IMG/VR virus record: IMGVR_UViG_3300035188_000482
Span: 1-24,491 of that record
Source: a virus
Strand: one strand, 5' to 3'
Length of the DNA stretch: 24,491 bases
Positions 4,786-20,898 of this stretch are shown in pieces. How positions within the stretch are numbered: the first letter of the stretch is position 1; every line of letters begins with the position of its first letter. Made by a program: the position numbers and the translations under genes. Below the pieces are notes generated by a model. It made no database searches and had not been told where the DNA came from. It worked only from the letters and a program-made list of their open reading frames with translations.

Positions 4786-4829
4786 GTCTTGTTTATAGCC
4801 AGAGACCTAACTTAGCCAAGGAGATGGTT

Positions 4830-18163: not shown

Positions 18164-20173
18164 TTGGTTAGCACACGAGCAGAGATTGTAACACGCAGGA
18201 CATACAACAGACCCAAAGACAAGGAGGGCAAAGTCTTCGAGACCTGGGAAGACACCATCGACCGGGTCATCAGTCACCAGAAGTGGCTGTGGGAACGAGC
18301 CAAGAGAAAACTCTGGCACACCGAGGACCAGAAGCTTACCGAAGAAGAGGAGAAAGAACTTGAGGAACTTCGGCTTCTCTTCCTTAGCCGAAAGGCGCTA
18401 CCCTCCGGGCGGACACTATGGCTCGGAGGGACTGAGATTGCGAAGACGAGGGAAGCATCCCAGTTCAACTGTAGCTTCCTCAGGATCGAGACTGTCTACG
18501 ATGTTGTGGACGCCTACTGGCTACTTCTACAGGGTTGTGGAGTGGGCTTCTCGCCGGTTACGGGAACTCTTAACGGCTTCACGAAACCAGTAGAACTCGA
18601 AGTAATCCGGTCCACCAAGACTGACCCACAGCACAAAGGCAACCCAAACAACGTCGAATGGTTCGAGGAAGGCATAGCGGCAGAGAGTGGCTATGGCCAC
18701 ATCAGAGGCGCGCGGTGGTTCATCAAGGTAGGGGATAGCGCCGAAGCATGGGCCAAGCTCCCCGGTAAACTCCTGGCTAACAAGATCGAATGCGAGAAGT
18801 TAATACTTGACTTCTCGGAGATACGTCCAGCAGGCACACGGCTCTCAAGCTACGGCTGGATCAGTAGTGGCGACGAGTTAATAGCAGACGCCATGACACA
18901 GATGGTTCGCATCCTGAACATCAGGAACAACCGACTGCTCACTGCTATCGACATCCTCGACATCCTCAATCTACTCGGGTCAACTCTCAGCAGCCGTAGG
19001 TCTGCCGAGATTTGCTTGTTGCCTTATGGTGACCCGGAGACTCTGGACTTCGTCAATGCCAAGAGTGACCTTGCAGCCACCCCGTGGCGGACACAGAGTA
19101 ACAACAGTCTCGTGTTTTACCACAAGCCTGCCAAGAGTGACCTTGAGAAACTCTTTGCTCTTATGGTTGCGAATGGTGGCTCTGAGCCTGGCCTAATCAA
19201 CGCTCAGGCTGCCCTCAAGCGGGCTCCGTGGTTTAAAGGCGTCAATCCGTGCGCTGAGATTCTCCTCGGGACCAAGAGCTTCTGTAATCTCACTGAGATT
19301 GACCTGAGCAAGTTCAATGGTGACGAGGAGGCGCTCCATGCTGCTGCGAGACTCATAGGCCGAGCGAACTATCGTCAGACCTGTGTGAACCTCGAAGATG
19401 GCATCCTGCAACGCTCATGGCACGAGACCAATGAGTATCTCAGGCTGTGCGGTGTTGGCCTGACTGGCATCGTGGGATGGGAACACCTCAATGACCCCAA
19501 GAAGGTGGAGGCCGTCAAGAAGTGGGCTGGTAAGGGTACCACAAGCATGGCGAGAGAGCTTAGGCTACCCCTGCCCAAGGCTGTGACCACAGTGAAACCC
19601 TCGGGAACTCTGAGCAAGATTATGGATACGACTGAAGGTGTCCATAAGCCTCTTGGTCGCTACATCTTCAACAACATCAAGTTCAGCATCCATGATCCGA
19701 TAGTCGCTCAGGCTCGCAAGGCGAACTACCGGGTCTTTGATGACCCCTACAACAAGGATGCTGTGCTGGTCACCTTCCCTGTGGAATATGAGAACGTCAA
19801 GTTCACCGATGTTGACGGTAAGGAAGTGAACACCGAGTCAGCTATCGACCAACTGGAGAGATACCGTTGGCTGATGGATAACTATGTGGAACACAACTGC
19901 TCCATCACCATCTCCTACAGTGAAGATGAGGTGCCGGGAGTTATCTCGTGGCTCCTCGACAACTGGGACACCTATGTTGGTGTGTCGTTCATCTTCAGGA
20001 ATGACCCCACGAAGACAGCAGAGGACCTTGGGTATGCCTATCTCCCGCAAGAGGTAGTCACCAAGGAATCCTATGAGGCGTATGTAAGCACCCTGAAGCC
20101 CCTTAAGCTGACTGACAGCCTTGAGGAGATTCAGGATGAGCGTTGTTCAACTGGAGCATGTCCCGTCAGATGA
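18164..20173 (+). CDS. Class II (adenosylcobalamin-dependent) ribonucleotide reductase
   Basis: 669 residues. It reduces ribonucleotides to deoxyribonucleotides with a B12-generated radical and needs no oxygen. TTG 18164 has GGAG 11 bases upstream. Key residues by analogy with the monomeric Lactobacillus enzyme: redox Cys103 in SQFNCSFLRIE and Cys374 in SFCNLTEI, radical Cys363 and Glu365 in NPCAEILLG, and the C-terminal shuttle pair Cys661/Cys666 in RCSTGACPVR. The Pro-rich PSGTLSKIMDTTEGVHKPLG is the phosphate-binding loop. No separate small subunit is present, as expected for class II. The phage must use host cobalamin. It overlaps the methyltransferase start. Confidence 0.93.
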   Translation: MVSTRAEIVTRRTYNRPKDKEGKVFETWEDTIDRVISHQKWLWERAKRKLWHTEDQKLTEEEEKELEELRLLFLSRKALPSGRTLWLGGTEIAKTREASQFNCSFLRIETVYDVVDAYWLLLQGCGVGFSPVTGTLNGFTKPVELEVIRSTKTDPQHKGNPNNVEWFEEGIAAESGYGHIRGARWFIKVGDSAEAWAKLPGKLLANKIECEKLILDFSEIRPAGTRLSSYGWISSGDELIADAMTQMVRILNIRNNRLLTAIDILDILNLLGSTLSSRRSAEICLLPYGDPETLDFVNAKSDLAATPWRTQSNNSLVFYHKPAKSDLEKLFALMVANGGSEPGLINAQAALKRAPWFKGVNPCAEILLGTKSFCNLTEIDLSKFNGDEEALHAAARLIGRANYRQTCVNLEDGILQRSWHETNEYLRLCGVGLTGIVGWEHLNDPKKVEAVKKWAGKGTTSMARELRLPLPKAVTTVKPSGTLSKIMDTTEGVHKPLGRYIFNNIKFSIHDPIVAQARKANYRVFDDPYNKDAVLVTFPVEYENVKFTDVDGKEVNTESAIDQLERYRWLMDNYVEHNCSITISYSEDEVPGVISWLLDNWDTYVGVSFIFRNDPTKTAEDLGYAYLPQEVVTKESYEAYVSTLKPLKLTDSLEEIQDERCSTGACPVR

Positions 20174-20898
20174 TGAAAGTCCTCGATCTCTTTAGTGGGA
20201 TCGGTGGCTTCTCTTTGGGACTAGAGCGGGCCGGTATGCAAACCATCGCTTTCTGCGAGGTTGATCCAAAGTGCCGAGAGGTGCTTCGGAAACACTGGCC
20301 TGCTACCCCAATCTATGAAGACATTCGTTCCCTACATGCAAAGGAAATTGGTGAAACAGTTGACGTTATTTGCGGAGGATTCCCCTGCCAAGACATCAGT
20401 GTCGCAGGAAAAGGAGCTGGACTATCAGGAGAAAGATCAGGACTGTGGTGGGAGTTCCACAGGCTCATCAAGGAAGCGAAGCCGAAATGGGTCATCATCG
20501 AAAACGTGTCAGCCCTTCGCTCTAGAGGATTGGATCAAGTCCTCAGGTCGCTCTCTCAGATCGGGTATGATTCGGAATGGCATTGTATTCCCGCTTCAGC
20601 CGTTGGTGCGCCTCACCAAAGGGACCGGGTCTGGATCATTGCTTACCCCATCGGCTCAAGGATGGAAGGCTTGGACTTTCCGAAACCCTTATGCGCTTAT
20701 TCGGAAGAATCACGCAGATGGCAACTTGCAGGAGCAGTTGATGCGGCTTTACCAGCGGATGATTACGCCAGAATGCGAGGAACTTTTAATGGGGTTTCCG
20801 AAGTCATGGACCGACTTAAGCAACTTGGAAACGCAGTAGTCCCACAGATACCCGAGTTAATCGGGAGGAGCATCCTCAAACATGACACCAACCCGTAA
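20170..20898 (+). CDS. DNA (cytosine-5) methyltransferase
   Basis: 242 residues. It transfers a methyl group from S-adenosylmethionine to cytosine C5. Motif I is VLDLFSGIGGFSLGLERAGM, motif IV GGFPCQDISVAGKGAGLSGE with catalytic Cys73, motif VI VIIENVSALRSRGL, motif VIII GAPHQRDRVWIIAYP, and motif X RLKQLGNAVVPQIPELIG. The target-recognition part is short, so specificity cannot be read. ATG 20170 overlaps the reductase stop. No restriction endonuclease is nearby, so it is an orphan enzyme, probably protecting phage DNA. A second ORF with its own family motifs overprints most of this gene (20351-20839). Confidence 0.93.
   Translation: MMKVLDLFSGIGGFSLGLERAGMQTIAFCEVDPKCREVLRKHWPATPIYEDIRSLHAKEIGETVDVICGGFPCQDISVAGKGAGLSGERSGLWWEFHRLIKEAKPKWVIIENVSALRSRGLDQVLRSLSQIGYDSEWHCIPASAVGAPHQRDRVWIIAYPIGSRMEGLDFPKPLCAYSEESRRWQLAGAVDAALPADDYARMRGTFNGVSEVMDRLKQLGNAVVPQIPELIGRSILKHDTNP
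20351..20839 (+). CDS. Overprinted ORF inside the methyltransferase gene
   Basis: 162 residues in the +1 frame relative to the methyltransferase. GTG 20351 has AAGGA five bases upstream. The product shows motifs I recognise from proteins found beside phage methyltransferases: QLTLFAEDSPAKTSVS, RSGMIRNGIVFPLQPLVRLT, then KGTGSGSLLTP, and LLMGFPKSWTDL near the end. The same bases that encode LTLFAEDSPAKTS encode catalytic motif IV (GGFPCQDIS), and those for GFPKSWTDLSNLET encode DRLKQLGNAV. Keeping both sets of motifs argues against a chance ORF. It could also be a relic of a frame change. Function unknown. Confidence 0.5.
   Translation: MKQLTLFAEDSPAKTSVSQEKELDYQEKDQDCGGSSTGSSRKRSRNGSSSKTCQPFALEDWIKSSGRSLRSGMIRNGIVFPLQPLVRLTKGTGSGSLLTPSAQGWKAWTFRNPYALIRKNHADGNLQEQLMRLYQRMITPECEELLMGFPKSWTDLSNLETQ

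Follow-up and report, generated by a model that had tools for sequence, protein, structure and literature searches.

The DNA analysed here (the window) is an entire viral record of 24,491 bases whose gene set is that of a T7-like podovirus, with genes for an integrase, a single-subunit RNA polymerase, endonuclease I, a primase-helicase, and a family A DNA polymerase, together with ThyX, a 5'-3' exonuclease, a ribonucleotide reductase, and PhoH. Between positions 4824 and 21610, the T7-like podovirus set lies alongside the integrase, ThyX, the ribonucleotide reductase, which is short (669 amino acids), and PhoH. Two genes, here called alpha and beta, occupy the same DNA in different frames. Alpha (positions 20170 to 20898; like all features of the window given below, on the plus strand) encodes a cytosine-C5 methyltransferase with motifs I to VIII and X that, by Pfam, profile, and fold comparisons, is without motif IX or a target-recognition domain (TRD). 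Its ATG start codon shares the sequence ATGA with the TGA stop codon of the upstream ribonucleotide reductase gene. Beta (20351 to 20839) encodes 162 amino acids in the +1 frame of alpha and is recognized by its family match, its open frame, its start signals, and the selection acting on it. The original prediction of a 162-residue +1 open reading frame (ORF) with a ribosome-binding site inside the methyltransferase gene was confirmed in the sequence, the probable ribosome-binding site being AAAGGAA (20340 to 20346), a type of site that is enriched in relatives. We infer that beta starts at the GTG at 20351; because the frame is open further upstream, as far as a TTG at 20261, the exact start is a predicted one.

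The family motifs attributed to the +1 product, LTLFAEDSPAKTS, RSGMIRNG, and LLMGFPKSWTDL, are present, and their base-for-base overlap with the catalytic motif and with the approach to motif X is as originally described. The bases of GGFPCQDIS, the catalytic motif IV of alpha (20374 to 20400), encode EDSPAKTS in beta, with GAGGATTCCCCTGCCAAGACA giving EDSPAKT in the +1 frame where the methyltransferase frame encodes GGFPCQDIS. At the other end of the overlap, the GFPKSWTDL of beta overlies the alpha residues directly before motif X (RLKQLGNAVVPQ), and motif X itself (LGNAVVP, 20824 to 20844) overlaps the end of beta.

Alpha is a cytosine-C5 DNA methyltransferase. It matches Pfam PF00145 over residues 2 to 165 (E 9.8e-53) and contains motifs I (FSGIGG), IV (PCQ), VI (ENV), VIII (QRDRVW), and X (GNAVVP) in addition to the large-domain fold. 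Profile comparison matched it to M.HhaI and M.HaeIII; the alpha profile covers M.HhaI residues 15 to 189 and, weakly, motif X, with nothing in between. In line with this, an AlphaFold model, built from an alignment without GenBank phage rows, aligned to M.HhaI with a Z score of 26 and had pLDDT values mostly above 90 in the large domain and the motif X helix. In the same model, residues 166 to 210 had pLDDT values below 50, and together with the omega-like values of relatives (see below), this identifies a disordered linker (20665 to 20799) at the canonical place of the small domain. Alpha thus differs from single-chain C5 methyltransferases, in which one polypeptide bears the large domain together with the TRD and motif IX; motif IX is likewise absent from the alpha proteins of relatives, with few exceptions.

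Several lines of evidence bear on whether the +1 frame is more than a chance opening. When synonymous codons were shuffled in alpha according to the codon usage of the phage, the +1 frame remained open over the stretch between the catalytic motif and the beta stop with a P value of 0.0016. Among 73 distinct viral relatives picked through alpha alone, 70 had a +1 frame open for at least 400 nt, compared with 4.2 expected under synonymous shuffling, and none had a +2 frame that was open by the same criterion. A Shine-Dalgarno sequence with a start codon was found in the +1 frame at 46 of 74 loci (11.9 expected) and in the +2 frame at only 1 (2.4 expected). No +1 frame was open as far as motif IX in the unsplit control methyltransferases with PCQ in frame, which numbered only 11. 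In a few relatives (loci L029, L040, L079, L121, L131, L133, L135, and L007), the +1 frame has a stop shortly past the catalytic motif, and in L007 the beta core is still legible downstream of it; the LFAEDSPAKTS leader of beta may be dispensable.

Frame-by-frame selection was assessed in 16 independent pairs of relatives, most of them from metagenomic contigs, by classing substitutions by their effect in each frame against expectation, which yields omega-like values that are simple counts with no correction for multiple hits. By this measure, only alpha is constrained upstream of the overlap (0.22), alpha is constrained from the catalytic PCQ to motif VIII (0.18), and from motif VIII to the beta stop it is beta that is constrained (0.43; 0.24 to 0.58) and alpha that is not (1.34; 1.14 to 1.65). 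The constrained frame therefore switches along the gene, and the alpha frame in the C-terminal half of beta is relaxed filler. Between PCQ and motif VIII, synonymous change in alpha is depressed relative to the region before the overlap, with a dS ratio of 0.54 (95% interval, 0.38 to 0.83), bearing out the expectation that synonymous change in the methyltransferase frame would be reduced there. In the same interval, beta-synonymous changes are enriched among alpha changes of either class (p = 0.006 and 0.002), an enrichment that is absent upstream of the overlap when substitutions are sorted in the same way. Across the family, selection acts on each of the two frames as coding sequence. The +1 ORF could in principle go untranslated and simply reflect codon usage and the conservation of the methyltransferase, and part of the LFAEDSPAKTS segment is indeed forced by GGFPCQDIS; however, the shuffling result, the excess of open +1 frames among relatives, and the flip of frame-specific selection to +1 past motif VIII mean that such an origin is almost certainly not the explanation.

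These data also bear on the suggestion that beta arose by overprinting of the methyltransferase. For the N-terminal half of beta, which consists of out-of-phase catalytic codons, that origin fits; it is not supported for the C-terminal half, where +1 is the constrained frame.

What, then, does beta encode? A database search of both frames matched alpha to PF00145, as described above, and placed beta in a phage protein family, as predicted, namely phrog_1008 (E 4.8e-14), to which all 57 aligned relatives also belong. The sequence searches of Pfam, NCBIfam, and the PDB returned no match to beta. The end of beta (ITPECEELLMGFPKSWTDL, 20762 to 20818) was placed by hhalign on the canonical motif IX (RRLTPVECARLQGFPDDW; P 0.0018, the motif being short), and in tandem-split relatives (see below) the equivalent motif runs into motif X. 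An HMM of the canonical motif IX alone proved too short, barely separating beta from shuffled sequences. As in enzymes of the M.EcoHK31I type, motif IX is thus found on the second polypeptide, at moderate strength given the shortness of the motif. Just upstream lies a probable target-recognition segment (LLTPSAQGWKAWTFRNPYALIRKNHADGNLQEQLMRLYQRM, 20639 to 20761), suggested by purifying selection in the beta frame of relatives while the alpha frame is free and by its being shared across phages. AlphaFold modelling of beta alone gave a low-confidence structure (mean pLDDT, 58.5). Alpha, then, is without the small domain, and beta ends in a motif IX-like segment; most likely, the TRD and motif IX belonging to this enzyme are found in the C-terminal half of beta. 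The original prediction did not recognize that the companion protein is probably the small domain missing from alpha.

Comparison with relatives in which the enzyme is divided differently supports the motif IX assignment more strongly than hhalign does. In phages Arturo, Schuy, and Lilbooboo (L384, L385, and L386), the first ORF ends directly after motif VIII, and the second ORF, in +1 and in each case a member of phrog_1008, contains the LPTP blocks, a segment resembling LNxxFxEWMMGW, and then motif X, all on one chain. Since the LNxxFxEWMMGW-like segment directly precedes motif X, it occupies the obligatory place of motif IX. A profile of these second ORFs gave no methyltransferase match when compared with the PDB. 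The tandem split form is possibly an intermediate or a derivative of the embedded form. That the second ORF sits just past motif VIII in +1 would also fit a scheme in which ribosomes shift into +1 after motif VIII to produce the C-terminal part of beta, yielding a single chain with motifs I to VIII, the TRD, and motif IX. We consider frameshifting very unlikely, because the +1 frame is kept open for about 280 nt upstream of any useful shift, +1 starts with ribosome-binding sites are enriched in that upstream part, beta is constrained upstream of the useful shift point, and the shifted product would be without motif X, which remains in the alpha frame.

A scan of viral contigs for the pattern LMGFPxGWT found 81 places, of which 78 are in +1 relative to an alpha; the remaining 3 (L189, L191, and L202) have alpha in the third frame and are probably indels or disrupted copies. 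When genome contigs from many bacterial phyla were picked by alpha, beta was found in +1 at 75 of 79 scored loci, and in 73 of those 75 motif IX was absent from alpha. The idea that the second family later became separate or fused in some phages is not supported by these surveys: no such copies were seen among the viral and genome loci scanned, which held only overlapping or shorter-overlap forms, and the LMGFPxGWT pattern never occurred in the same frame as the catalytic domain (0 of 81). "Separate" applies only in the limited sense that shorter-overlap tandem forms occur in mycobacteriophages. The same observations weigh on the proposal that beta acts independently in some other role, such as that of a regulator or an anti-restriction factor, and was overprinted on the methyltransferase. 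The out-of-phase catalytic sequence that makes up the N-terminal half of beta and the lack of a Pfam entry for its family would suit such a protein, but nearly every copy examined sits on an alpha of this kind, alpha is without exactly the piece that beta resembles, and relatives have motif X and the beta-like segment on one chain, making an unrelated function highly improbable.

The distribution of beta segments among alphas is of interest with respect to specificity. From LLTPSAQGWKAWTFRNPYALIRKNHADGNLQEQLMRLYQRM through motif IX, the beta segment is mostly 77 to 96% identical in phages whose alpha catalytic regions are only 40 to 60% identical. Many of the loci compared were located through beta, a route that biases how many there are but not the fact that they exist. 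Different beta segments accompany the nearest alphas, which reach 78% in the same comparison. Mapped on an alpha tree, the labelled segment types imply four changes, of which well-supported branches require at least two; one row (L139) was mislabelled by pattern and is really of the same segment type. Judged from these sequences, TRD type moves between distant alphas. Phages may use the +1 frame as a swappable specificity subunit, with the whole recognition domain out of frame in beta and TRD cassettes passing between distant alphas while the catalytic frame stays intact, and the assignment of the M.EcoHK31I TRD to its large chain would need revision; we put this forward tentatively, as a possibility slightly short of an even chance.

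Overall, the locus very probably encodes a naturally split C5 methyltransferase of the M.EcoHK31I kind, with beta supplying the TRD and motif IX in trans. In this model, alpha would provide the AdoMet-binding and catalytic large domain (motifs I to VIII and X), and ribosomes would initiate inside alpha at the +1-frame GTG to make beta, the C-terminal half of which would furnish the small-domain pieces missing from alpha, namely the target-recognition segment and motif IX. Alpha and beta are predicted to come together on DNA as a single active enzyme whose target sequence is determined by beta, and the role of the enzyme is most likely that of an orphan methyltransferase marking the phage's own DNA against host restriction. 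Counting against the split reading are the predicted location of the M.EcoHK31I TRD in the large chain (PMC3404938), the poor model of beta, the lack of a Pfam or PDB sequence match to beta, and the short motif IX match.

At present, the only description attached to phrog_1008 is "DNA methyltransferase," and most of the records examined annotate just one frame of the two. Should beta prove to be the recognition subunit, many phage and prophage methyltransferases are annotated as half an enzyme; an assay of the annotated frame by itself would then yield a false negative, and the search for specificity would be directed at the wrong frame. The locus is also well suited to the study of overlapping genes: the same-strand overlap is long, widespread, and easy to test, and the constrained frame changes along its length.

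Divided C5 methyltransferases have precedents. The small chain of M.EcoHK31I is encoded in another frame inside the gene for its large chain, and M.EaeI is another two-polypeptide C5 methyltransferase. M.EcoHK31I, which recognizes YGGCCR, consists of two polypeptides, a large chain with motifs I to VIII and X and the predicted TRD and a small chain with motif IX (PMC3404938; also PMC3439449). The phage pair resembles it, as likened by description, in having a large chain with motifs I to VIII and X and a second chain with motif IX, but differs in that its patterns of selection and conservation favor beta as the site of the TRD. The large domain of alpha is also that of M.HhaI and M.HaeIII, but in these enzymes a single chain includes the TRD and motif IX as well. 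In M.AquI, motifs I to VIII lie on one chain, and motif IX and part of the TRD lie on a second (PMC3404938). The Arturo, Schuy, and Lilbooboo pairs resemble the window in having motifs I to VIII on one chain and TRD-like blocks and motif IX on a +1 second ORF; M.AquI and these tandem pairs differ from the window in carrying motif X on the second chain and in their short overlap.

A further comparison is provided by Streptococcus phage MM1, in which the depositors annotated orf13 and orf14 (DQ113772) as overlapping C5 methyltransferase alpha and beta subunits (L383; coordinates 1450 to 2607 and 1601 to 2026). As in the window, the MM1 beta is embedded in +1 across the same catalytic codons, and it has a weak phrog_1008 match. 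Unlike the window, the MM1 alpha retains its own motif IX (RKLTPRECWRLQGFPDW), and its beta belongs to another family, phrog_16143, with DILEEEVDERYFLS near its end. This second companion type also occurs in L388 to L396; 130 phage records cover at least 80% of the phrog_16143 +1 companion, and the methyltransferases in which it is embedded retain their own motif IX. The companion contains DILEExVxExFFLS, a main-frame block in unsplit methyltransferases, and past motif VIII (4 pairs) its +1 frame looks constrained (0.61) and alpha relaxed (1.79). Split methyltransferases of this general kind are thus already known; what is new, as far as sequence comparison can indicate, is their phage-wide extent, the predicted placement of the TRD, and the apparent exchange of +1 cassettes.
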